A stretch of 64,000 nucleotides of DNA, from NCBI GenBank assembly GCA_947498595.1, contig CANMKX010000005.1, positions 1 through 64,000 on the forward strand, in the 5' to 3' direction. The position numbers were made by a program, and so were the translations under genes. This document shows positions 2,559 through 34,852 of this stretch, piece after piece. The notes under the pieces are model-generated. The model did no database searches. It was not told the DNA's origin and worked only from the letters and a program-made list of their open reading frames with translations. Origin of the DNA: an uncultured Aquimarina sp. (GTDB lineage Bacteria; Bacteroidota; Bacteroidia; Flavobacteriales; Flavobacteriaceae). Position 1 is the first letter of the stretch, and each line of letters opens with the position of its first letter.

Positions 2559-5500
2559 TTATTTGTTACGCCTAAATCGTACTTTAAATCGATTCACGAT
2601 GTAAAATAGAGCAGGAACAATGATTAAAGTTAAAAATGTAGCGATGATCAAACCATATATAACAGTCCACGCTAAAGGTCCCCAGAAAATAACATTATCT
2701 CCACCCATATAGATTTTTGCATCAAATTCAGAGAATAATGAAAAGAAATCTATGTTTAAACCAATAGCTAAAGGAATTAAACCTAATACAGTTGTAATAG
2801 CTGTTAAAAGAACAGGACGTAAACGAGCTTTACCTCCTTTTATGATTAATAGCATTACTTCATCATTAGATAATAATTCACTTTCAGGAATATTTAATTC
2901 GGATTTTCTACGATCTATTAATAATTGAGTATAATCTAATAATACTACACCATTATTTACAACAATACCAGCAAGAGATATAATTCCCATCATAGTCATC
3001 ATAATAACAAAAGAAGCTCCAGTGATTAAGATTCCTCCAAATACCCCTATAAAACTTAGGAATATGGCAATCATAATAATTGTTGGTTTAGAAATAGAGC
3101 TAAACTGGAAAATCAAAATTAACATGATAAGACCTAGTCCAGCAAAGAAAGCTCCCATTAAAAAGCTCATTTGTTTACCTTGTTCTTCAATCTGACCAGT
3201 ATAATCGATTTTAACACTTTTAGGAGATTCTGTAAAATTAGCCATTTCGGTCTGTATTTGACTTACAATAGCTCCCGCATCTGTGTAACCAGCTTGTAAA
3301 GCCGAATATACTGTAACTACTCGTTTAGAATCTTTGTGTTTGATAGCGCTAAAAGAAGAAGTGTTTTTTTGAGATGCTAATGCCGAAACAGGAATTTGCT
3401 TAATTTGTCCATTAGCTGGATCTCTAAAAATAATATTCTGATTAAATAAAGCACTTTTGTTATAACGAATATCTTCATTAAAACGAACATAAATATCATA
3501 ATCTTCACCGTCTTTTTTATAGATACCAGCTTTGTCACCAAAGATAGAACGACGTAATTGATTACCTACTTGACCAGCAGCTACACCTAGTTCACCAGCT
3601 TTTTGACGATCAACAGTAATTTGCATAGCAGGTTTTCCTTTATTTACGTCAATTTTCAATTCTTCAATACCAGGAATGTTTTTAGTATTGATAAAATCAC
3701 GCATTTTTTCGGCAACTACAATTAGTTCATCATAATCAGAACCTTCTAATTCAATATTAATAGGATATCCAGCTGGAGGACCTACAGGATCTTTTTCTAC
3801 AGAAATAGCAACACCAGGGTAAATTCCTTTAAGATCTTTTTGAATTTTTTGTCTTAAAATTTCACTGTCTTCCCCTTTTCTGTATTTATATTCACGCATT
3901 GTAGCAGTAATTTTTCCTCTATGAGGCATTTCTGCATTACTACCACCATCAGTTTGTGGATTACCAGCTCCTTCTCCTACTTGAGAAACCGCAGATTCTA
4001 CTAAAAAGTTATATCCATCAGCTTCTACATATTCAGGAGAGTTAACCACATTGTATACACGTTGTTCGATTTCTTTGGTAATCAAATTAGTTTTTTCGAT
4101 ATCGGTACCTTGTGGATATTCTATATAAACTGTAATCTGATTAGGTTTATTATCAGGGAAAAATTCAATACTAGTACGCTTACTACCTACAGAAGCTCCG
4201 AAAGCTGCAAAAACAATGAATAAGAGAATGAAAGTACCAATGACAAAAACATACGATCTCCATCCTTTTAACGCAAATGCAAGGAAGCTTTGATATTTGT
4301 TTTCTAACCAAGTAAGAATTCTACTTTGGAAGAAGTTGGCTGCTTTTTTAAGAATGTATTTATAGATCCAGAACATGATAGCTGTAAAAATCATTACAGA
4401 ACCTAAACCACTTACTTCTCCACCAAATAATAATATAAAGATACCAAACCCACCTAAAATAATGCTTAAACGAATTAGCTGTTTAATAGTTAATTCTCGT
4501 TGTCCAATTTCCATGAATTGTGATACTAACATAGAGTTAATAAAAATGGCAACAAATAAAGATGATCCAAGTACTACTGATAATGTAATAGGGAAATAAA
4601 TCATGAATTGTCCCATAACACCAGGCCACATTCCTAATGGAATAAAAGCAGCAACAGTTGTAAGAGTAGAGATGATTATAGGGAATGCAATTTCACCGAT
4701 TCCTTTTTTTGAAGCTTCTAAACGAGACATTCCTTCTTCATCCATCAAACGATAAACATTTTCTACTACAACGATACCATTATCAACCAGCATTCCTAAT
4801 CCCATAATCAAGGCAAATAGAATCATAGTATTCATTGTATATCCTAATGCAGATAAAATCATGAATGACATAAACATCGACATTGGGATTGCAAAACCAA
4901 CAAATAGTGCGTTTCTAAATCCTAAAAAGAACATTAAAACACCAACTACAAGAATGATCCCAAAAATGATGTTATTAACTAAATCATTTACTTGATTAAC
5001 CGTTTTTGCTGATTGATCATTTGCAATAGTAACAGATAAGTCTGTAGGGAAAATATTTTCCTTAGCATCTTCAACAATTACATTGATTTTTTCTACAGCT
5101 TCTACCATGTTTTTACCAGAACGTTTTTTAACATCTAGCATTACTACGCTATGTCCAAATTCTCTAGCATAAGTTGTTCTTTCTTCTTCTTTAAAAGTAA
5201 CCTGAGCTATATCTTTAAGATATACAGGGCCATTTTGAGATTTTACAACAAAATTATCTAACTCTATAGGTGTATCGATCTCTCCTAAAATTCTTAAAGT
5301 ACGGCGTTGACCACTAGAAATCATGTTTCCAGCAGACATAGTAACGTTTCCGTTTCTAATGGCGTTGATAACATCATCAAAACTTACTTGAGCAGCCATC
5401 ATTTTATAAATATCAACAGCAACTTCAACTTCTTTTTCTTGAGCACCACGAATGTCTACTTGCTTAATTTCAAGTAAATCTTCAATTTCATCTTCTAGAT

Positions 5501-6030: not shown

Positions 6031-7194
6031 TTAGTTTAATATTTTTACTTTTTGACCATCTTTTACACTTCTAGCTCCTTCTTGAATGATTGCATCTCCG
6101 CTTTTAAGACCCTCTAAAATTTCAATTAAATCTCCTTGAGTTTTTCCTGTTTTAACAATGGCTCTTTTTGCTTCCGCTTCATTATTTGCATTTTTTGCAG
6201 ATGTTATATAAGTATATTGATCTCCGTTTGCGTTTTCTGAAATAATACTTTGCGGAATTAATATAGCTTTTTTGCTAGTATAGTCATTGATTTTCAGCTT
6301 AGCAGTTAAATTAGGTTTGATTAAATTATCTCTATTAGGAACAGCTACTTCTACTGTAAAAGTACGGTTGCTAGGGTGTATATAGTTACCAGCTTGTCTA
6401 ATCTTACTGGCAATTGTTTTACCTAAGATTGGGAAGAATATTTCAACTTTTTTTCCTTTTGTTACATTAGCAATATAACTTTCAGGAATGTCTGCTTTGA
6501 TATACATGTTTCTCAGATTTACAATTCTAAATAAAGATGCACCTGGAGCAACAATACTACCTTGTTCAGAAATAACGTCATCAATTACACCTGTAAATGG
6601 AGCAGTAACTTGAGACTTTGCAATTTGCTTTTTTAATTGAGCTATTGAGTTTTGTTGTGCTTTGTACGTAGTTTCAGCTTGTAAAAATTGTATTTCAGAA
6701 CCAATTTTTTGATCCCAAAGTTTCTTTTGACGATCGTAAGTTGTTTTAGCTAAAGCAGCTTGTACTTCTAATTGAGCTAAATTTTGACTTAAACCTCCAT
6801 CATCAATAGAAGCTAATAATTGCCCTTGAGTAACACGTTGTCCTTCTTTTACAAAAATTCGATTGATAGTACCAGAAGCTTCTGCTACTATAACAAGGTT
6901 TTGTTTTGTATCTACGCTACCTTGAATTTCTAAATAGTGATTAAACAACGTATCCTTAGCTGTAATTGTAGTTACTAAAGGTAATTTTTTAATAGTATCA
7001 AGAGAGGCAATAGCTTTATCTAGCTCTTGTATTTTTGATGTAATTTCTTGTTGCTCTCCTACGATTTCTGTTCTTTTAGTTCGTATAGCTTCTAAATTTC
7101 CGCTTTCGATAATGTCTTCAACAGATTTGCTCTTCTTCTCTCCACAAGAGATAATAAGAAACGATATAGTGAATATTGAAAATAATTTTTTCAT
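6031..7194 (-). CDS. RND efflux periplasmic adaptor (membrane fusion lipoprotein)
   Basis: The 387-residue product has a lipoprotein signal peptide with the invariant Cys at residue 17 (IISC). Next comes a coiled-coil N-terminal stretch, a biotinyl-lipoyl-like half (ASGTINRIFVKEGQRVTQGQ), a helical hairpin (QKKLWDQKIGSEIQFLQAE) and the second lipoyl half (SQVTAPFTGVIDDVISEQG). The beta-barrel and membrane-proximal domains follow. This is the HlyD/AcrA adaptor architecture that bridges the inner-membrane pump to the outer-membrane channel. It sits between tolC-like and RND genes with 7-8-base gaps, so the three are co-translated parts of one tripartite pump. Confidence 0.92.
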   Translation of the reverse strand: MKKLFSIFTISFLIISCGEKKSKSVEDIIESGNLEAIRTKRTEIVGEQQEITSKIQELDKAIASLDTIKKLPLVTTITAKDTLFNHYLEIQGSVDTKQNLVIVAEASGTINRIFVKEGQRVTQGQLLASIDDGGLSQNLAQLEVQAALAKTTYDRQKKLWDQKIGSEIQFLQAETTYKAQQNSIAQLKKQIAKSQVTAPFTGVIDDVISEQGSIVAPGASLFRIVNLRNMYIKADIPESYIANVTKGKKVEIFFPILGKTIASKIRQAGNYIHPSNRTFTVEVAVPNRDNLIKPNLTAKLKINDYTSKKAILIPQSIISENANGDQYTYITSAKNANNEAEAKRAIVKTGKTQGDLIEILEGLKSGDAIIQEGARSVKDGQKVKILN

Positions 7195-7202
7195 TATTAA
7201 TA

Positions 7203-8558
7203 TTATTTGTTTGGTGTGTTTAAAATTGTTTCTAAATCAGCTTTCTTGATAATGATATCAAGCATTGATTGTAATAATTCTTGTTGCGTACTATATAGTT
7301 GTAATTGAGCTTGTCTCAGTTCAAAGCTAGTAGCTAATCCTTCTTTGAATTTTATTTGGTTTTTGTTCTCAATTCGTTCAGAAAGAGCAAGATTCTTTTT
7401 TGAAGTATCATAGTTTTCTATAGCAAACTGATAATCACTTTTAGCACTGTTTAAACTAAGTTTAATACGTTGTTGTGCTTCTGTAAACTGAGTATTAGCT
7501 TGTTCTAAAGCTATTCTAGCTTGCTTTGTTTTTGAAGTTCTACTTAAAGAACTAAAAATAGGAATATTAATGCTAGCTCCAAGTATTGAAGATTGAAACC
7601 AAGCTTGATCACTGTCTAGAAAACTAAAACTATCACTGTTAGCAGCTGTACCATAGTTAACAAAAGCTGAAACAGAAGGTAAAGCTCTACTACGCTCAAG
7701 TTTTAATTCTAAACTTCTTTGTTCAGTTAAATTATATGCTAATTTATAATCTACATTATTTTCTATTGTTAATGGTGCTTGAGCAATTGCCAAATCCATG
7801 TTTTGAGAAGCTAATGTTTCTAAATTTTCTTTAAGAATAGATTTTGAATTTACATCTAATCCCAACGCAAGGTTAAACATTTGCATAGCTATTTTCTCTG
7901 TACGCCTAGCGTTGTTTAATTGACTGTTAACTTGAGCTAAAGTAATTTGTAATTGTTCAACACTTTCTTCTTCTTCAAGACCATTTTCAAATATTTTTTG
8001 AGTATCTGATAAATTTTGTTCTAGAGTTGCTTTATTTTTTTCGATAATAGCAACACTCTCTTGAGACAATAATACACTACCATATGCATTGATAACACCT
8101 TTGCGTACATCAAGCTGCATTTTTTCTTCGTTATTGTAAGTGTATTCTAGGAAACTTTTAGCAGCTTGTAATCCAACTAGGTATGAACCATCAAAAATTA
8201 ATTGATTCAATGTTACGGTTGCAGAAGCTTGTTGCTTTGTTCCAAAAACTACAGGGACAAATGTTCCGGGTGCACCACCAGAAAATTCACCTGGAATAAA
8301 AGAAACAGGTTGCTTTAATTGATTTTGATAATCAATTTTACCGCTTATTTGCGGAAGCCCAGTAGCAGTAGCTTCCCATTTTCTTTGTAAAGCTTTTGCT
8401 ACATCTCTGCGTGCATTAAGACTGGTATAGCTGTTTTTTAATGCAAAATCAACAGCTTCTTCTAATGTGAAACTGTGTTCGCTTGCAGTTGGTTGTTGTG
8501 CTATAATAGCTGTAGAGAAGATACAGCATATTATTAATAACCAGAGGTTGTTTTTCAT
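7203..8558 (-). CDS. TolC-family outer-membrane efflux protein
   Basis: The 451-residue protein has a cleavable signal peptide ending near AIIAQQ and then the TolC N-terminal pattern FTLEEAVDFALKNSY. Two internally related halves of long helices follow, rich in Gln, Glu, Leu and Asn (for example RSLELKLERSRALPSVSAF and the C-terminal FKEGLATSFELRQAQLQL). Length and repeat structure match OEP/TolC channels, which form trimeric outer-membrane exit ducts. The gene starts 3 bases after the tetR stop and 8 bases before the adaptor, in the efflux operon. Confidence 0.92.
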   Translation of the reverse strand: MKNNLWLLIICCIFSTAIIAQQPTASEHSFTLEEAVDFALKNSYTSLNARRDVAKALQRKWEATATGLPQISGKIDYQNQLKQPVSFIPGEFSGGAPGTFVPVVFGTKQQASATVTLNQLIFDGSYLVGLQAAKSFLEYTYNNEEKMQLDVRKGVINAYGSVLLSQESVAIIEKNKATLEQNLSDTQKIFENGLEEEESVEQLQITLAQVNSQLNNARRTEKIAMQMFNLALGLDVNSKSILKENLETLASQNMDLAIAQAPLTIENNVDYKLAYNLTEQRSLELKLERSRALPSVSAFVNYGTAANSDSFSFLDSDQAWFQSSILGASINIPIFSSLSRTSKTKQARIALEQANTQFTEAQQRIKLSLNSAKSDYQFAIENYDTSKKNLALSERIENKNQIKFKEGLATSFELRQAQLQLYSTQQELLQSMLDIIIKKADLETILNTPNK

Positions 8559-8561
8559 AAG

Positions 8562-9158
8562 TTAATTGTTTATAAAATTTTGAAGTATTGTAAGTCCTTT
8601 GTTAGTTGCGATTCCTCTTACATGGTATTCTAGATATTCACCCATAAGTTTAATTATAGAAAAATCGGATAGAGGAAATAAATCTTGATCTTTAATTCCG
8701 GTAATTCCCATAAAATAAAGACGAGATATAATTTCGATATCCATATTTTCTCTATAAACACCAGAAGCAATTCCACGATGTAGGTTATTGATGATGCAAT
8801 CTTGCATAACATCAAATTGTTTGGCTTTTATTTCTCTATGTATTTTTGGATAATATTTTTGAAGTTGATATTGAGGTGAAGCCTTTTCATTTTTTAAATG
8901 CTCTAATACAAAAGCTTTGATAGTAAAAAGTTCCTCAATAGGATCTTTGTCAGCGTCTAAAATAGTTTCTATACCAGTACAAACATTATTAAAAAGATGA
9001 TTAGTAGTTGCTTCTACTAATTTAGTTTTGTTGCTGAAATGGGTATAAATAGTTTTTTTTGAAATCCCCATTTCTGAAGCTAAATCATCCATAGTAACGC
9101 TTTTGAAACCATAATTCAAAAACATTTTGGATGCAGATTCTATTATTTTTTCTTTCAT
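8562..9158 (-). CDS. TetR-family repressor of the efflux operon
   Basis: The 198-residue protein has an N-terminal TetR DNA-binding domain: VTMDDLASEMGISKKTIYTHF at about residues 21-41 forms the helix-turn-helix. The remainder is a helical ligand-binding and dimer domain (a TetR_C-type of unknown ligand). It is the first gene of the tetR-tolC-adaptor-RND operon, so it is probably autoregulated and controls its own pump. A perfect 10-bp inverted repeat lies upstream across the promoter. The ATG at 9158 follows an in-phase candidate promoter. Confidence 0.9.
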   Translation of the reverse strand: MKEKIIESASKMFLNYGFKSVTMDDLASEMGISKKTIYTHFSNKTKLVEATTNHLFNNVCTGIETILDADKDPIEELFTIKAFVLEHLKNEKASPQYQLQKYYPKIHREIKAKQFDVMQDCIINNLHRGIASGVYRENMDIEIISRLYFMGITGIKDQDLFPLSDFSIIKLMGEYLEYHVRGIATNKGLTILQNFINN

Positions 9159-9177
9159 AGTTTGCGTTATTGGAGCG

Positions 9178-9209
9178 CAAATTTAAGGCAAGGAAACTTT
9201 AAAAACAAT
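9178..9209 (-). promoter_or_regulatory. Candidate promoter of the tetR-efflux operon
   Basis: Read on the minus strand, TAAATTTG (9178-9185) fits the Bacteroidota -7 consensus TAnnTTTG exactly. An ATTG at 9206-9209 lies 20 bases upstream and is a near match to the -33 TTTG box. The -33 element falls in the spacer of the inverted repeat at 9191-9220, so a bound repressor would block it. Confidence 0.6.
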
Positions 9210-9220
9210 AAAAGTTTCCT
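9191..9220. promoter_or_regulatory. Probable TetR operator (perfect 10-bp inverted repeat)
   Basis: AGGAAACTTT (9191-9200) and AAAGTTTCCT (9211-9220) are perfect inverted arms with a 10-base A/T spacer. A third half-site, AAAGTTTCT, lies at 9249-9257, towards the divergent polyprenyl synthetase gene. Geometry and location upstream of a self-regulating tetR gene point to an operator. Binding is inferred and not shown. Confidence 0.65.
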
Positions 9221-9303
9221 AAGTTTTACATAAAAATAATATTATCGTAAAGTTTCTATCGCATTTTGAGGAATTCATTTACATTAGCATAAAATTTTTT
9301 GAA

Positions 9304-10278
9304 GTGAATACGATTATTGATTACCAGAATTATTTTTTAGAGTACTTATCTCAAAAGGTTCAAAATAAAGAACCTAAGAATTTATACGAACCTATTTCTT
9401 ATATATTAAATTTAGGAGGAAAGCGATTAAGACCAGTTCTTGTATTGATGACCTCAGAAATTTTTGGAGGTAATTATCAAAAAGCATTAGATGCAGCATT
9501 AGCTGTTGAAGTATTTCATAATTTTTCATTAGTTCATGACGATATTATGGATGATGCGCCTTTACGTAGAGGAAAGGAAACGGTTCATGAAAAATGGGAT
9601 ATAAATACAGGGATACTGTCAGGAGATGCAATGTTGATTAATGCGTATCAATTATTTGAAAATTACGACAGTGAAATTTTTAGAGAACTAGCTACATTAT
9701 TTACAAAAACGGCTATTGAGGTTTGCGAAGGACAGCAATATGACATTGATTTTGAAACAAGAGATGATGTTACAATTCCTGAGTATATGAAAATGATAGA
9801 ATATAAAACAGCTGTTTTAGTCGGGGCAGCTATGCAGATGGGAGCAATTGTAGCTGAAGCACCTGAGACTTGTAAAAAGGAGATTTATAATTTTGGAAAA
9901 CTATTAGGAATTGCATTTCAATTACAAGATGATTATTTGGATGCTTTTGGTGATCCAGAAACATTTGGGAAACAAGTCGGAGGAGATATTATAGAAAATA
10001 AAAAGACGTATTTATATCTTAAATCGCTAGAATACGCTTCAGAAGAAGAGATCAAACAGTTAGAAGGATTGTTTACATTAAATCCAGAAAACCCTTCAGA
10101 GAAAATAGAAACAGTAAAAAGTTTGTTTGAAAGTACTGGTGCTAAAGAGAGAACAAGAAAAGAAATTGTTAAATATACAGAAGAAGCATTTGATGTTTTA
10201 GATACTCTTTCTATAGACGAAAGTAATAGAGAAATTTTGAGAGATTTCGGTAAAAGCTTAATGAATAGAACTGTATAG
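9304..10278 (+). CDS. Polyprenyl (isoprenyl) diphosphate synthase
   Basis: The 324-residue protein carries both Asp-rich motifs of trans-prenyltransferases: HDDIMDDAPLRRG at about residue 78-90 and QLQDDYLDAFGD near 207-218, plus LGGKRLRPVL near residue 38. It condenses isopentenyl diphosphate onto an allylic diphosphate through Mg2+ held by the Asp motifs. The product may be the side chain of menaquinone or another C15-C40 chain; chain length cannot be read securely. Start is GTG at 9304, since no ATG fits the conserved N-terminus MNTIIDYQNYFLEYL. It is divergent from the efflux operon. Isoprene precursors probably come from the mevalonate genes at 15.3-17.6 kb, which is inference. Confidence 0.92.
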   Translation: MNTIIDYQNYFLEYLSQKVQNKEPKNLYEPISYILNLGGKRLRPVLVLMTSEIFGGNYQKALDAALAVEVFHNFSLVHDDIMDDAPLRRGKETVHEKWDINTGILSGDAMLINAYQLFENYDSEIFRELATLFTKTAIEVCEGQQYDIDFETRDDVTIPEYMKMIEYKTAVLVGAAMQMGAIVAEAPETCKKEIYNFGKLLGIAFQLQDDYLDAFGDPETFGKQVGGDIIENKKTYLYLKSLEYASEEEIKQLEGLFTLNPENPSEKIETVKSLFESTGAKERTRKEIVKYTEEAFDVLDTLSIDESNREILRDFGKSLMNRTV

Positions 10279-10556: not shown

Positions 10557-13325
10557 ATGGATAAATATTCATTTTTAAATGCGGCTAATACCGCATTTTT
10601 TGCAGATTTATACGATCAATATTTGCAAAACCCTGATGGTGTTGAACCTAGCTGGCGTGCATTTTTTCAGGGATTCGATTTTGGACTAGAAAGTGCAGAA
10701 ACAGAAACTATTTATGTAGAAACAGAAAGCTCTGGCGAGAAAATAGCTGTACCTGAAAGTTTGCAAAAAGAATTTCAAGTTGTTAAGCTTATCGACGGAT
10801 ATAGAACACGTGGTCATTTGTTTACAAAAACAAACCCTGTTCGAGAAAGACGTAAATATACACCAACATTAGCATTAGAAAATTTTGGTTTAAGTCAAGG
10901 AGATTTAAATACAGTATTTAGTGCAGGTGAAATATTAGGAATAGGAGCAACTAGCTTAAGTAACATTATTGTACATTTAGAAAAAATCTATTGTGAAGCT
11001 ATAGGAGTTGAGTATATGTATATTCGAAATCCAGAAGAAATAGCTTGGATACAAGAGCAGATTAATATAAATGATAATCATTCCAAATTTACTCCAGAAG
11101 AGAAGAAACATATTCTAAAGAAGCTTAATCAAGCTGTTTCTTTTGAAAGCTTTTTACATACAAAATATGTAGGACAAAAACGTTTCTCTTTAGAAGGAGG
11201 AGAATCTTTAATTCCAGCATTAGATGCTTTAGTTGAAAAGGCAGCGGACCAGGGAGTTAAAGAGTTTGTTATGGGGATGGCACATAGAGGTAGATTAAGT
11301 ACATTAACTAATATTTTTGGAAAGAGTGCAAAGGATATCTTTAGTGAATTTGACGGAAAAGATTATGAAGAAGCGATTTTTGATGGAGATGTAAAATACC
11401 ATTTAGGGTGGACTTCAAAAAGAAGTACAGATTCAGGAAAAGCTATCAATATGAATATAGCACCTAATCCATCTCACTTAGAGACGGTAGGGGCAGTTGT
11501 TGAAGGAATTACAAGAGCAAAACAAGATCGTCATTATCAAGAAAATACATGTGATGTATTGCCTATCGTAGTACATGGAGATGCTGCTGTAGCAGGACAA
11601 GGTCTTGTGTACGAAATTGTGCAAATGGCGCAATTAGATGGATATAAAACTGGAGGAACTATACATATTGTAGTAAATAACCAAATTGGATTTACAACAA
11701 ATTATTTAGATGCACGATCATCTACTTATTGTACAGATGTAGCAAAAATTACGCTATCACCTGTTTTACATGTAAATGCAGACGATGCAGAGGCAGTAGT
11801 ACATGCGATGCAATTTGCATTAGACTTTAGAATGAAATTTAAAAGAGATGTATTTATTGATCTTTTAGGATATCGTAAATATGGACATAATGAAGGAGAT
11901 GAGCCAAGATTTACACAACCTAAATTATATAAAGCAATTGCTAAGCATCAAAATGCACGAGATATTTATGCAGCTAAATTATTAGCTGAAGGAGTTATCG
12001 ATGCAGATTATGTTAAGCAATTAGAAAAAGAATATAAAGCATCTTTAGAGGAAGAATTACAAGAATCTAGACAAGAAGATAAAACTGTTATAACACCATT
12101 TATGCAAGATGAATGGTCAGGGTTTAATCTGGTTCAGGAAGATGAAATGATGAAAGTAGTTGATACTACTTATGCTAAAGATAAGCTTACAGAAATAGCT
12201 GAGGTAGTAACAAAATTACCATCAGATAAAAAATTTCTACGAAAAATTGAGCGTTTGATTAATCAGCGTAATAAAATGTTCTTTGAAGATGATAAGTTGG
12301 ACTGGGCTATGGGAGAAATCCTAGCATATGGTTCTTTACTTAAAGAAGGATATGACGTACGTATGAGTGGTCAAGATGTAGAAAGAGGAACATTTTCCCA
12401 TAGACATGCTGTTGTAAAAGTTGAAGATAGTGAAGAAGAGGTTATCTTATTAAATAATTTAAAAGGAGACCAAGGAGATTTTTATATTTATAATTCATTT
12501 CTATCAGAATATGGTGTTTTAGGATTTGACTATGGTTATGCAATGGCAAGTCCAAAAACGTTGATGATTTGGGAAGCACAATTTGGTGATTTTAGTAATG
12601 GAGCTCAAATTATGATTGACCAATATATATCTTCGGCAGAGGATAAGTGGAAATTACAAAACGGTATCGTTATGTTATTACCACATGGATATGAAGGACA
12701 AGGAGCAGAACACTCTTCAGCACGTATGGAACGTTATTTACAATTATGTGCTAAAGATAATATGTTTGTTGCAGATGTATCTACTCCAGCTAATATGTTC
12801 CATTTGTTACGTAGACAAATGAAAGCTAGTTATAGAAAACCATTGATAGTGTTTACTCCTAAAAGTTTATTAAGAGATAAACGAGTAGTGTCGAGTGTAG
12901 AAGAGTTTGCGAATGGACAATTTATGCCAACAATTGATGATCCAATAGCAAAATCAGAAAAGGTAAAAACATTAGTGTTCTGTACAGGTAAATTCTATTA
13001 TGATCTATTAGATAGAAAAGAAGAAACTAACAGAGAAGATATTGCATTGGTTCGTATAGAACAATTATTTCCATTACCAGCTGATGAGATCAGAGCTGCT
13101 ATAAAAAAATATGATGCAGAAGATATCGTATGGGCTCAAGAAGAACCACGTAATATGGGAGCTTTAAGTCATATTTTGATGCATTTGGATGAAGCAAAAA
13201 GTTTTAGATTTGCTAGTAGAAGGCCTTATGGAGCGCCAGCAGCAGGTAGTTCAACACGATCTAAAAGACGTCATGGAGAAGTAATCGATTACGTTTTCGA
13301 TAAAACAAAAAATAATCAGCGTTAA
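10557..13325 (+). CDS. sucA: 2-oxoglutarate dehydrogenase E1 component
   Basis: At 922 residues the protein has the full E1o length. The N-terminal segment FLNAANTAFFADLYDQYLQNP resembles the E2-binding tail, and PSWRAFFQGFDFG follows. The thiamine diphosphate core includes MGMAHRGRLSTLTNIFGK, HLETVGAVVEG, GDAAVAGQGLVYE and the GTIHIVVNNQIGFTT block. The C-terminal half holds EAQFGDFSNGAQIMIDQY and GYEGQGAEHSSARMERYLQL, also conserved. It decarboxylates 2-oxoglutarate and passes the succinyl group to the E2 lipoyl arm in the TCA cycle, in the cytoplasm. The E2 gene follows after 42 bases; E3 is not in the window. Confidence 0.97.
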   Translation: MDKYSFLNAANTAFFADLYDQYLQNPDGVEPSWRAFFQGFDFGLESAETETIYVETESSGEKIAVPESLQKEFQVVKLIDGYRTRGHLFTKTNPVRERRKYTPTLALENFGLSQGDLNTVFSAGEILGIGATSLSNIIVHLEKIYCEAIGVEYMYIRNPEEIAWIQEQININDNHSKFTPEEKKHILKKLNQAVSFESFLHTKYVGQKRFSLEGGESLIPALDALVEKAADQGVKEFVMGMAHRGRLSTLTNIFGKSAKDIFSEFDGKDYEEAIFDGDVKYHLGWTSKRSTDSGKAINMNIAPNPSHLETVGAVVEGITRAKQDRHYQENTCDVLPIVVHGDAAVAGQGLVYEIVQMAQLDGYKTGGTIHIVVNNQIGFTTNYLDARSSTYCTDVAKITLSPVLHVNADDAEAVVHAMQFALDFRMKFKRDVFIDLLGYRKYGHNEGDEPRFTQPKLYKAIAKHQNARDIYAAKLLAEGVIDADYVKQLEKEYKASLEEELQESRQEDKTVITPFMQDEWSGFNLVQEDEMMKVVDTTYAKDKLTEIAEVVTKLPSDKKFLRKIERLINQRNKMFFEDDKLDWAMGEILAYGSLLKEGYDVRMSGQDVERGTFSHRHAVVKVEDSEEEVILLNNLKGDQGDFYIYNSFLSEYGVLGFDYGYAMASPKTLMIWEAQFGDFSNGAQIMIDQYISSAEDKWKLQNGIVMLLPHGYEGQGAEHSSARMERYLQLCAKDNMFVADVSTPANMFHLLRRQMKASYRKPLIVFTPKSLLRDKRVVSSVEEFANGQFMPTIDDPIAKSEKVKTLVFCTGKFYYDLLDRKEETNREDIALVRIEQLFPLPADEIRAAIKKYDAEDIVWAQEEPRNMGALSHILMHLDEAKSFRFASRRPYGAPAAGSSTRSKRRHGEVIDYVFDKTKNNQR

Positions 13326-32366: not shown

Positions 32367-32408
32367 AAAAAAGAGAGCATGTATCAATAGATACACGCTC
32401 TCTTTTTG
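32367..32408. terminator. Bidirectional terminator between the permease and the peptide operon
   Basis: GAGAGC-A-TGTATC (32373-32385) pairs with GATACA-C-GCTCTC (32390-32402), loop AATA; one mismatch. A-tract to the left and T-tract to the right serve both converging transcripts. The right edge touches the stop codon of the last peptide gene (32409). Confidence 0.85.
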
Positions 32409-32573
32409 TTAATCTGTGACACAATAACAATCTCCTGTAAGGAAATCTATAGCTATTATGCCATTACAAGCAGCTGAGCAATCTGGTAGTGAATGTCTAG
32501 TACCACCATTGATTGTTTTTTGTTGAGATTTATTTAACAAAGTGAAATTCTCAAGTTTTGACATTTTTTTCAT
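32409..32573 (-). CDS. Double-glycine leader Cys-rich peptide D (54 aa)
   Basis: A 54-residue gene starting with ATG at 32573 and ending at TAA 32411-32409. The leader MKKMSKLENFTLLNKSQQKTINGG ends in Gly-Gly at residue 24 and shows the L-x-K-x-Q-x-x-I-x-GG pattern of C39-processed peptides. The 30-residue core contains four Cys (positions 32, 36, 49, 51), suited to two disulfides. It is the last gene of the operon, immediately before the terminator. Bacteriocin or signalling roles are possible; neither is shown. The shared leader with three neighbours makes the call secure despite its small size. Confidence 0.8.
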   Translation of the reverse strand: MKKMSKLENFTLLNKSQQKTINGGTRHSLPDCSAACNGIIAIDFLTGDCYCVTD

Positions 32574-32607
32574 GACTATAAATGATTAATTAATTAACAA
32601 GGTGTTT

Positions 32608-32793
32608 TTACAAAGGAACACATGTACCGTGTGATCCGTGTCGAACGCAAGCCCAATCATATTCACCAGTAACTTCAAAACAATCACGTCTAGAACGACA
32701 ACCTATAGGATATTGTATCGCTCCTCCTTTAATTGTTTCTTGTTCTTTTTTATTTAAGATAGTAGCTCCTTTTATATTTTTTAAATGATTCAT
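32608..32793 (-). CDS. Double-glycine leader Cys-rich peptide C (61 aa)
   Basis: The 61-residue product has the leader MNHLKNIKGATILNKKEQETIKGG, cleaved after Gly24 by homology with C39 substrates. The core is AIQYPIGCRSRRDCFEVTGE and onward, with four Cys (residues 32, 38, 49 and 58) and Arg/His content that makes it basic. It lies 34 bases from peptide D and 34 from peptide B in the same minus-strand run behind the VKOR/thioredoxin gene. Disulfide-stabilised export product is inferred; the target is unknown. Confidence 0.85.
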   Translation of the reverse strand: MNHLKNIKGATILNKKEQETIKGGAIQYPIGCRSRRDCFEVTGEYDWACVRHGSHGTCVPL

Positions 32794-32827
32794 ATGTGAT
32801 AAAATTAATGAGTTTATATAATATTTT

Positions 32828-33031
32828 TTAATGCCCTAATCCAGAAATAGGAGTAGAACCATCTGGACAAACGTTATTGCAGTCTACAACTATAATTTCT
32901 AGCTGACCGCCTCGTCCTCTAATAATGCAGCCACAACCTTCTCTGTGGTTTGTTAAATCTCCACCAAATACATTTTTTTGATTTGATTTAGATAAAACAG
33001 TTATTCCTGCAATGTTTTTTATTTTATTCAT
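32828..33031 (-). CDS. Double-glycine leader Cys-rich peptide B (67 aa)
   Basis: The 67-residue product has the leader MNKIKNIAGITVLSKSNQKNVFGG (Gly-Gly at 23-24). The core holds a CGC pair (residues 33 and 35), a Gly/Arg-rich turn (RGRGG) and a second CNNVC group, four Cys in total. Core sequence is unrelated to the other three peptides although the leader is the same type. Gap to peptide A is 21 bases. The upstream linker (attaattttaacc) resembles that before peptides A and C, supporting duplication of units with new cores. Confidence 0.85.
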   Translation of the reverse strand: MNKIKNIAGITVLSKSNQKNVFGGDLTNHREGCGCIIRGRGGQLEIIVVDCNNVCPDGSTPISGLGH

Positions 33032-33052
33032 TTATGGTTAAAATTAATTTGT

Positions 33053-33223
33053 TTAACAAGTACAAGGTTGACCAGGATAAATGCAAAACCATCTTAGCTG
33101 ATCACTATTAAAACAAGCTTCTTGACCATTTTGGCACACAGGAGCTTTTCCACCATTAATGGCTTTCTGTTGATTTTTATCTAATCGATGAGTTGATTGT
33201 AGTTTTGAAATGTTTTTTAACAT
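33053..33223 (-). CDS. Double-glycine leader Cys-rich peptide A (56 aa)
   Basis: A 56-residue gene with ATG at 33223 and TAA at 33055-33053. Leader MLKNISKLQSTHRLDKNQQKAINGG ends at Gly25. The core has five Cys (residues 30, 37, 46, 53 and 55), ending in PCTC; two would form disulfide pairs and one may be free or dimerise. It is the first peptide gene, 33 bases after the stop of the VKOR/thioredoxin fusion gene. Too short for usual gene callers but clearly part of the family. Confidence 0.8.
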   Translation of the reverse strand: MLKNISKLQSTHRLDKNQQKAINGGKAPVCQNGQEACFNSDQLRWFCIYPGQPCTC

Positions 33224-33256
33224 GATTATTTATTTAAAGGTTAAAATTGATTGCTT

Positions 33257-34852
33257 TTATACTGACTCTAGATTGGATGTATTTTCTTCGACTGATTCTG
33301 TGTAGAAATTGTCACTTAATACACTTATAAAATGGTAGAATTCGTCGTAGCTGTATTTTTTTGGATAAAATGAACCGTTTATTAAAGTAGCAGGAGTATA
33401 ATATAGATTATTTTCATCTGCCCAATTTGATTGATTTTGTAATACTTCTATATATTTAGGTTCATTACTTGGAGCTCCATAGTTTTTCATCCATACTGTG
33501 TGTGTTCTGTTTTCAAACCATGCAGTATATGCTTTGATAAAAGAATCAGCACCTTGTTCGTGGAATATTTCAAGTAATCTTAAACTAATTTGAGTAGCTG
33601 GGTTATCTAATTGTGTTGGCTGTACTTTTAAACGAATTGCTATTTGAATATTATCTCCTAAACTTTTTACGGTTCTAGCATATGCTTCAAATGCATTTTT
33701 ACAATACCCACACATTGGATTTGTAACACTAATGATTTTTAGTTTTGCATTGGGATTACCGATGATTATTTCGTTTGTGATTGTTTTTTGATTTTCAATT
33801 TTTTCTGATTTAGAAAATAAATAATTGAAAATTTGAGTATCCCGCTTAAAGCGATTCAGTGTAATATTTTCACTTTTTTGAGCTTTACTTTCTACTAATT
33901 TTTCTTTAAGAAGTGTATATCCTAATGTGATTATAGTAGTAATTGTTATAAATTGAGCTAGAGCAGCAATATCAAATTCAAAATTTAATTTAAATAAAGC
34001 TATAGCAGCCATCCCTATAGTGATAGCACTAATCGTTAAGCATATAGCACACCATTTTTTAATTACAAATGCTTGAGAGTATAATGCATATAAAATAATA
34101 GGAATACTAAGTAAGGATGGGAAAATTAGGATAGATGTAAAACCAAAGAAAAATTGATAAGCCGTAATACCTAAAAAATATGTCAAACTAGCATCAGCGA
34201 TACTAAAGTTTTTGAAAATTTTACCACTAGTGTTATTAATTACATCTCCGCAATTGGTATTACCTACAGTAGTACAAAATTGATGCATCGTTTGTGACTG
34301 AAAGCCTAAACTTTCTCTAACGGCAAAAAAACCAAATAAACCTCCACTAATAGATAATACTAAAAAACCAATAGCTTGAAAATCCCAATTTTTAAAGAAT
34401 AATAAACCAATAATACCGGCTATTAAAAGAGAGACAAGAGTGGTTTGAAAAAATGATTTTGAAATTTTTAAATGTGATTTACTACTATGCTCAACAGCAA
34501 TAACTTTTGGAATCCATATTTTTTCGAATTCATTAATGCTGATTTTTTTATCTTTTTGATTAGGATATTTTAAATGGATTTTATTTTTCTTTCTTAAAAC
34601 AGAAACTATTTCATGATCAGATTCTGATGAGACTAAAGATATGAAGCTATCAGGAAGTTGATCTAAAGCTTCTCTAGGAACTTCTACAGCAATATTATCA
34701 ATGTTAAAATAATCAAGAGTATCTGTTATAGAATTAAAACTAGGATAATTAGGATGAATTTGTAATTGAAGATCTAAATCTTGTTTGTCATAGTTATTAA
34801 TTCCGTTTTGAATTAAAACATTTTCAACAATACTTTCTATGTTGCTTTTCAT
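33257..34852 (-). CDS. C39-like / VKOR / thioredoxin fusion, oxidative folding of GG-leader peptides
   Basis: The 531-residue protein has three parts. Residues 1-122 resemble a C39 peptidase domain (HPNYPSFNSITDTLDYFNI; DHEIVSVLRKKNKIHLKYPN) with the His kept (His80) but no Cys at all, so it cannot cleave; leader binding is inferred. Residues about 130-320 form a VKOR membrane domain with loop Cys193 and Cys201 and the redox pair WCAIC (268, 271). Residues about 360-515 form a DsbA-like thioredoxin domain with MCGYC (381, 384) and cis-Pro487 in YTPATLING. VKOR-thioredoxin fusions make disulfides using quinone. The four following genes encode Cys-rich GG-leader peptides, the likely substrates. 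No exporter is adjacent. Confidence 0.9.
   Translation of the reverse strand: MKSNIESIVENVLIQNGINNYDKQDLDLQLQIHPNYPSFNSITDTLDYFNIDNIAVEVPREALDQLPDSFISLVSSESDHEIVSVLRKKNKIHLKYPNQKDKKISINEFEKIWIPKVIAVEHSSKSHLKISKSFFQTTLVSLLIAGIIGLLFFKNWDFQAIGFLVLSISGGLFGFFAVRESLGFQSQTMHQFCTTVGNTNCGDVINNTSGKIFKNFSIADASLTYFLGITAYQFFFGFTSILIFPSLLSIPIILYALYSQAFVIKKWCAICLTISAITIGMAAIALFKLNFEFDIAALAQFITITTIITLGYTLLKEKLVESKAQKSENITLNRFKRDTQIFNYLFSKSEKIENQKTITNEIIIGNPNAKLKIISVTNPMCGYCKNAFEAYARTVKSLGDNIQIAIRLKVQPTQLDNPATQISLRLLEIFHEQGADSFIKAYTAWFENRTHTVWMKNYGAPSNEPKYIEVLQNQSNWADENNLYYTPATLINGSFYPKKYSYDEFYHFISVLSDNFYTESVEENTSNLESV

Follow-up and report, generated by a model that had tools for sequence, protein, structure and literature searches.

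A C39-like, VKOR and DsbA-like fusion beside four GG-leader peptides

The DNA analysed here (the window) is a 64,000-nucleotide stretch of contig CANMKX010000005.1 (positions 1–64,000) from an uncultured Aquimarina sp. of the Flavobacteriaceae. It contains a single minus-strand run (34852–32409) in which an open reading frame (ORF; 33257–34852) for a 531-amino acid (aa) fusion protein is followed by four ORFs for peptides with double-glycine (GG) leaders. From the fusion to peptide 4 the intergenic gaps are 33, 21, 34 and 34 bases, and a terminator-like hairpin directly past the last stop codon closes the run. An earlier reading of this DNA (the original prediction) had described a minus-strand run with gaps of 21–34 bases and four leader-GG-core peptides with four or five Cys. 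Both descriptions are borne out, with the ORFs where it had placed them and five, four, four and four Cys in the successive cores. The features, in the order of the run, are as follows.

33257–34852, minus strand: C39-like/VKOR/DsbA-like fusion, 531 aa, with six predicted transmembrane (TM) helices (ORF, Pfam, AlphaFold2 model)
34478–34852, minus strand: C39-like domain, residues 1–125, without the catalytic Cys segment; proposed leader receptor (PF03412, E = 2e-8; structural alignment)
34394–34453, minus strand: extra TM helix, residues 134–153, at the junction of the C39-like domain and the VKOR core (AlphaFold2 helix and hydropathy peak)
33908–34381, minus strand: VKOR core, residues ~158–315, with C193, C201, C268 and C271 (PF07884, structural match)
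33305–33808, minus strand: DsbA/ScsC-like domain, residues 349–516, with the CGYC active site C381/C384 (PF13462, structural match)
33053–33223, minus strand: GG-leader peptide 1, 56 aa; leader 25 aa, core 31 aa, 5 Cys (ORF)
32828–33031, minus strand: GG-leader peptide 2, 67 aa; leader 24 aa, core 43 aa, 4 Cys (ORF; homologues at other loci)
32608–32793, minus strand: GG-leader peptide 3, 61 aa; leader 24 aa, core 37 aa, 4 Cys (ORF; two homologues in locus L012)
32409–32573, minus strand: GG-leader peptide 4, 54 aa; leader 24 aa, core 30 aa, 4 Cys (ORF)
32368–32407, minus strand: terminator-like hairpin with 18 pairs, a loop of 4 and a T-rich tail (consensus match only)

Pfam matches over the cut-off divide the fusion into three domains: Peptidase_C39 (residues 19–124, E = 2e-8), VKOR (residues 163–285, E = 4e-9) and Thioredoxin_4 (residues 360–509, E = 7e-8). 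An AlphaFold2 model built on a 53-sequence alignment has a mean predicted local distance difference test (pLDDT) score of 86.9 and a predicted template modelling (pTM) score of 0.56, and the individual domains are therefore trusted more than their relative placement. Re-comparison of Foldseek's best chains matched residues 1–125 to the peptidase domain of substrate-bound PCAT1 (8vp5; Z 14.4, root-mean-square deviation (rmsd) 2.9, 124 residues aligned) and to the LahT protease–leader complex (6mpz; Z 13.9, rmsd 2.8, 119 aligned). Likewise, residues 157–291 match a VKOR (6wv8; Z 13.1, rmsd 3.2, 133 aligned) and residues 349–516 a ScsC/DsbA protein (7rgv; Z 17.3, rmsd 2.7, 158 aligned). The fusion belongs to the VKOR family (PF07884), with four redox Cys in its VKOR domain and a fused CxxC thioredoxin-type domain; all six redox Cys (C193, C201, C268, C271, C381 and C384) are invariant in the fusion alignment (n = 53). 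The original prediction of a three-part redox protein holds for the VKOR and DsbA-like domains. The first part, which Pfam identifies as a C39-like leader-binding fold, had been overlooked.

Although the N-terminus has the C39 fold, by both its PF03412 match over the cut-off and its structural matches, the fusions contain no catalytic Cys segment of Peptidase C39 (Q....DCG); of 87 exporter matches, counting duplicate loci, 85 carry DCG. Because this segment is missing, we treat the first domain as a C39-like domain and not as a peptidase, and we rejected the reading of the fusion as an active leader protease. Judged by its sequence, it is a C39-like domain of the substrate-recruiting, non-cutting kind, as in HlyB.

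In PCAT1, residues A55 and I59 are described as forming the leader knot (PMC6959990). In our alignment the A55-equivalent position is L or F in 68 of 78 fusion loci and L in 48 of 49 exporters; at the I59 equivalent, 63 of the 78 fusion loci have T (74 have either T or S) and 47 of the 49 exporters have S. At these leader-knot positions the fusion groove therefore resembles that of its partner exporters, a likeness that is suggestive only. We also asked whether leader position –7 covaries with the C39-like groove and found no usable signal: the groove residues stay much alike for any residue at –7, and the comparison is confounded by phylogeny.

Peptides, neighbourhoods and exporters across relatives

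The window leaders follow the double-glycine pattern of class II bacteriocin-like secreted peptides, with hydrophobic residues at –12 and –4 and GG at –2/–1; position –7 is Q, where L is the usual residue. Conservation of –12 and –4 is no evidence in itself, because the search pattern for GG leaders fixes these positions. None of the four peptides has a Pfam or NCBIfam family above the cut-off. Three score 11.1–14.5 bits against NCBIfam NF047798 (leader_Chryseo, 'bacteriocin-like protein'; cut-off 23.5) and the fourth has no match, while one relative peptide, from locus L217, matches this family at 37.2 bits. Window peptides 2 and 3 have homologues at orthologous loci, including L032, L013 and L012, and the longer of these matches conserve all four Cys. 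Peptides 1 and 4 have no homologue match in the compared locus set.

To place the operon among its relatives, we used 121 fusion loci, mostly from Flavobacteriaceae, reduced to 104 at 90% identity. Between –2.5 and +5 kb of these fusions there are 197 distinct GG-peptide cores on the fusion strand and two on the other. This strand bias, together with the homologues that conserve their Cys, led us to reject the reading of the window peptides as chance ORFs. We restricted a test of Cys parity to cores with at least three Cys. With the search widened to +9 kb, 250 of 269 such cores have an even number of Cys and 19 an odd number; clustered, they divide into 140 even and 10 odd (n = 150). The redundancy filter removed loci with Cys-free GG peptides (L031, L034, L036 and L037), and the histogram of the 104 loci thus shows no core with zero Cys. 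By their Cys parity the cores look disulfide-bonded; the peptides are presumably secreted, and their function may be bacteriocin-like or signalling.

The 269 fusion-linked leaders also share a conserved part at –15 to –20, approximately ILNLKGA (82% have L at –18 and 72% have G at –15), which lies beyond the segment with known C39-domain contacts. On visual inspection, a leader part of this type occurs in one of 14 leaders around exporters without a fusion (L143). This segment could be a second recognition element.

Locus L034 carries two further peptide arrays in the cluster of its fusion. Upstream of the fusion, four GG peptides in a row (7874–9526, plus strand) have six Cys spaced C..C..CC..C..C, an arrangement that we take to resemble that of knottin-like peptides. 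At 12071–12871 (plus strand) there are four near-alike tandem Cys-free GG peptides, with cores ending approximately in DLDISQEALISGHV.

Fusion neighbourhoods were scored for GG peptides with at least three core Cys (same strand, –2.5 to +5 kb), a C39 exporter (up to 5 kb downstream) and an HlyD protein (up to 7 kb). Among the 104 non-redundant fusions, 64 have GG peptides, 49 an exporter, 47 HlyD and 39 both peptide and exporter. The original prediction had inferred that the fusion is functionally linked to Cys-rich GG peptides, and these counts, with the even Cys numbers, support it well. It had also stated that this link would fall if fusion homologues occurred without such peptides, or the peptides widely without the fusion; on that test the 30 of the 104 fusions with neither peptides nor an exporter speak against it, and the other 74 have peptides and/or an exporter. 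Because several loci stop at contig edges, all of these counts are lower bounds. In the group nearest the window gene (n = 32), 13 fusions have peptides and one has an exporter; among the remaining 72, peptides accompany 51 and an exporter 48, and 12 have neither. A phylum-wide search added 20 loci, 18 of them from five other families. Thirteen have GG peptides with at least three Cys (27 of their 28 cores have an even Cys count), 12 have an exporter and three have neither.

Fusion, GG peptides and exporter also occur together on Aureibacter and Emticicia plasmids, and the Emticicia plasmid combines fusion, exporter, HlyD and TolC. Of eight fusion matches in plasmid records, seven bear the annotation 'vitamin K epoxide reductase family protein'. 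The eighth, annotated as 'thioredoxin domain-containing protein', is a split form. In one plasmid-labelled Parabacteroides record the C39-like and VKOR-thioredoxin parts are two ORFs. Another plasmid-labelled Parabacteroides record (L253, 6908–14721, plus strand) holds, in a single run, a fusion, a six-Cys small peptide, a LanC-family protein, glycosyltransferases and a C39 exporter. Given their housekeeping-type genes, both of these records may be chromosomal pieces.

In a sample of 199 Flavobacteriaceae genomes, a C39 match above 100 bits is present in 29 of 29 genomes with a full-length fusion and in 29 of 170 without one (Fisher 5e-19). Thirty-one genomes have a fusion match, but G016 and G038 lack a full-length fusion and were placed among the 170. 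The C39 match has a frame longer than 700 aa in 28 of the 29 fusion genomes; in the other, G153, it is shorter. C39 matches above 100 bits with a frame below 510 aa were found in G153 and in the non-fusion genomes G038, G119 and G150. Of the 45 VKOR matches in the sample, 42 are this C39-like fusion.

C39 matches were fetched in part (G150 and short or weak matches were left out, and the L155 and L188 stretches gave no usable exporter), giving 82 distinct exporters. With a wide leader pattern, GG peptides with at least four Cys lie by 21 of the 24 fusion-adjacent exporters and by 8 of the 58 others (Fisher 3e-10); with a strict pattern the counts are 14 of 24 and 5 of 58 (Fisher 5e-6). Of these eight other exporters, two have a fusion in the fetched stretch but outside the distance or strand rule (L117, L119), four come from genomes with a fusion elsewhere (L010, L168, L174, L182) and one has a fusion remnant (L143), so that L146 is left. 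At exporters without a fusion, 62 of 77 GG peptides have 0–2 Cys. In a quick tree of 57 exporters, a single 36-row clade (support 97) contains all 23 that are fusion-adjacent, and the fusion-adjacency label changes nine times, compared with 18.1 in shuffles. From these exporter, tree and genome controls we conclude that fusion, exporter type and Cys-rich peptides are associated with one another.

The original prediction held that no C39 exporter or HlyD-like protein is nearby and that export would use a machine encoded elsewhere. Indeed, no C39 exporter was found on the window contig; an HlyD-family match does lie in the window, at 6316–6894, but this is ~26 kb from the operon. A genome-wide C39 search fits the idea of a distant machine. 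The assembly has five C39 matches, namely two exporters and three fusions, and its three VKOR matches are all C39-like fusions. One exporter forms an operon with a paralogous fusion (L009), in which the fusion is followed after 7 bases by the C39 exporter and, after 1 base, by an HlyD protein. The third fusion of the genome (L011) is followed by two GG peptides with four and six core Cys.

Predicted orientation, proposed mechanism and alternatives

The fusion model has six TM helices (AlphaFold2 and hydropathy), of which the additional one separates the C39-like domain from the VKOR core; the Synechococcus VKOR-DsbA structure reportedly has five. With a sixth helix, the N- and C-terminal domains of the fusion come to share one membrane side. 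The C39-like domain stands before the first TM helix (AlphaFold2, hydropathy), and inspection of the fusion N-terminus revealed no signal-like hydrophobic stretch. Lysine plus arginine (K+R) near the membrane averages 8.89 (catalytic side) and 1.30 (opposite side) in the 104 non-redundant fusions, all of which are biased in the same sense. In 15 ordinary VKOR-DsbA proteins of the same phylum without a C39-like domain, the values are 1.47 and 10.07, respectively, and none is fusion-like. Three VKOR loci without a fused thioredoxin (L238, L239 and L251) were excluded from these controls, some of which are near-copies (L235/L252). Another 20 fusions all share the catalytic-side bias; 18 belong to other families of the phylum, and one of the 20, L228, is a partial frame.

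By this charge bias the fusions depart from the periplasmic catalytic side of other VKOR fusions. Applying the positive-inside rule, we predict a cytoplasmic location for the redox sites and the C39-like domain, inverted relative to the usual VKOR-DsbA arrangement, and that the extra TM helix (residues 134–153) reverses the usual VKOR orientation. This amends the original prediction, as the charge bias predicts redox parts on the side opposite to the usual working side of VKOR-DsbA fusions. A cytoplasmic orientation fits the start without a signal-like stretch, the location of the leaders, and an exporter-HlyD-(TolC) path that skips the periplasm.

We consider it probable that the operon encodes disulfide-rich secreted peptides together with a dedicated, leader-recruiting and quinone-linked enzyme that oxidises their precursors in the cytoplasm before C39/HlyD export. 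In such a mechanism, the non-proteolytic C39-like domain would capture each precursor by its GG leader in the cytoplasm, and the tethered core would be oxidised at the DsbA-like CGYC site. The VKOR core would then re-oxidise this site and pass the electrons to membrane quinone. Owing to the inverted VKOR topology, the redox and leader-binding parts would all be on the cytoplasmic face. The folded or partly folded precursor would be handed to a C39 ABC exporter, in the window's case encoded elsewhere with HlyD, which would cut after GG and secrete the core directly past the periplasm. For the phylum as a whole, we lean towards the view that Bacteroidota possess a cytoplasm-facing, leader-guided disulfide machine, composed of an inverted VKOR-DsbA and a recycled, protease-dead C39 domain as leader receptor, that acts before C39/HlyD/TolC export.

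Several points weigh against this proposal. The topology is inferred from charge bias and helix count only, and stable disulfides are unusual in the reducing cytoplasm. In engineered Escherichia coli strains, disulfides are reported to form in the cytoplasm (PMC5471842, PMC6350376). The PCAT1-CtA structure is described as having unstructured and flexible cargo in its pathway (PMC6959990). Where PCAT1 has I59, nearly all fusion loci carry T or S, though S is also what most exporters have there. Window peptide 1 has an odd number of Cys, and some fusion loci also hold Cys-free GG peptides (four in L034). Neither GG peptide nor exporter lies within the searched distance of 30 of the 104 fusions, including 18 of the 32 in the group nearest the window gene.

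The fusion may instead have the usual orientation and make disulfides in the periplasm, with its DsbA-like and C39-like domains outside, during or after export. Characterised bacterial VKOR-DsbA fusions are said to work there, and by their Cys parity the peptides look plainly disulfide-bonded. Such an arrangement nevertheless needs averages of ~9 K+R outside and ~1 inside, with a bias in this sense in 104 of 104 homologues, the reverse of the 15 ordinary relatives, and translocation of a 130-residue N-terminal domain without a signal peptide. Moreover, because leader removal occurs on the cytoplasmic side, an external leader-binding fold would have no ligand, and C39-HlyD-TolC export bypasses the periplasm in any case. 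We regard this alternative as rather unlikely. It is unlikely, too, that the C39-like domain merely docks the fusion to the exporter, without binding leaders, and that oxidation takes place in passage, a view that overlaps with the cytoplasmic, leader-guided mechanism. An exporter neighbours 49 of the 104 fusions and the 23 fusion-adjacent exporters share one clade (36 of 57 exporters, quick tree), as docking would suggest; fusion-peptide operons such as that of the window nevertheless have no exporter nearby, and the groove positions resemble those of exporters.

A general oxidative-folding enzyme, for which the GG-peptide neighbourhood is incidental, would accommodate the 30 fusions without a peptide or exporter neighbour and the predominance of this fusion among Flavobacteriaceae VKOR matches (42 of 45). 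However, the fusion is present in just 29 of 199 genomes of the family, each with a C39 exporter match, and it travels with GG peptides and an exporter on the Aureibacter and Emticicia plasmids. The exporter linkage, Cys parity and retained C39-like domain likewise speak against it. We find this alternative highly improbable, and a general periplasmic disulfide enzyme was rejected as the principal reading for its patchy presence, the C39 exporter match that always accompanies it in the sample, and the inverted charges.

If the cytoplasmic, leader-guided mechanism is correct, it would be a Gram-negative route for putting disulfides into peptides that never reside in the periplasm, and a textbook periplasmic reaction would have been relocated to the cytoplasmic side in mesophilic bacteria. 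The C39 domain would gain a second job as leader receptor. Disulfide formation would become a leader-directed modification like those of the enzymes for ribosomally synthesized and post-translationally modified peptides (RiPPs), inside a normally reducing bacterial cytoplasm, and the enzyme might serve as a tool for producing disulfide-rich peptides in cells. The combination of the fusion and even-Cys GG peptides also offers a genomic handle on a large, mostly unannotated set of putative disulfide-rich secreted peptides across Bacteroidota.

Known systems and further genes of the Aquimarina genome

Bacterial VKOR-DsbA/thioredoxin fusions share with the window protein a VKOR core, a loop Cys pair, a CxxC and a thioredoxin-fold partner. 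The window fusion differs in its extra N-terminal TM helix, its C39-like domain and its reversed charges. The membrane topology of an archaeal VKOR, from Aeropyrum pernix, is reported to promote disulfides in two compartments. Protease-dead C39-like domains are described as recruiting substrate in HlyB-type exporters (PMC6363468); in those systems the domain belongs to the exporter, whereas here it belongs to the redox enzyme.

The bacteroidetocin (class IIf) regions of Bacteroidales are described as encoding GG peptides and a C39 exporter along with a five-TM protein and, in most regions, a thiol oxidoreductase whose deletion attenuates activity (Coyne 2019, PMC6671954). As that account presents them, they resemble the window in combining Cys-containing GG-leader peptides, a dedicated thiol oxidoreductase and a C39 ABC exporter in Bacteroidota. 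The same description sets them apart: the five-TM protein and oxidoreductase are separate, whereas the window has a single chain with a C39-like domain. Moreover, bacteroidetocin leaders are given as 15–16 aa, with 36 peptides in 35 regions, in contrast to the window's leaders of 24–25 aa and its peptide array. By leader length and single-chain fusion, the window operon thus falls outside class IIf. In Gram-positive bacteria, the pediocin protein PedC, reported to help form correct disulfides, and the bactofencin accessory protein are likewise thioredoxin-type helpers beside a GG bacteriocin and an ABC exporter; as described there, neither is mentioned as having a VKOR fusion or a C39-like domain (PMC5465099). 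We found no description of a C39-like-VKOR-DsbA fusion or of its inverted orientation in the open-access papers searched, nor any paper there that combines VKOR, bacteriocin and disulfide. A dedicated disulfide helper for GG peptides is already known as an idea; the architecture, predicted orientation and phylum-wide pattern appear to be new.

Other genes lie beside the two exporters of the Aquimarina genome. In L009, the HlyD gene is followed by a 100-aa protein (4805–5107, minus strand) with a signal-peptidase-I-like match below the cut-off (25.8 vs 51.85 bits), and a TPR protein comes next. Beside the second C39 exporter (L010, 5540–8324, plus strand) there is a Cys-free peptide rich in repeated T/V/R residues after a YGG motif, adjoined by two proteins, one of 421 and one of 434 aa, which are similar on visual inspection and lack a Pfam match over the cut-off. 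Downstream of the same exporter (L010, 11672–12146, plus strand) are two more Cys-rich peptides, with leaders ending in GN and GA and no fusion beside them.

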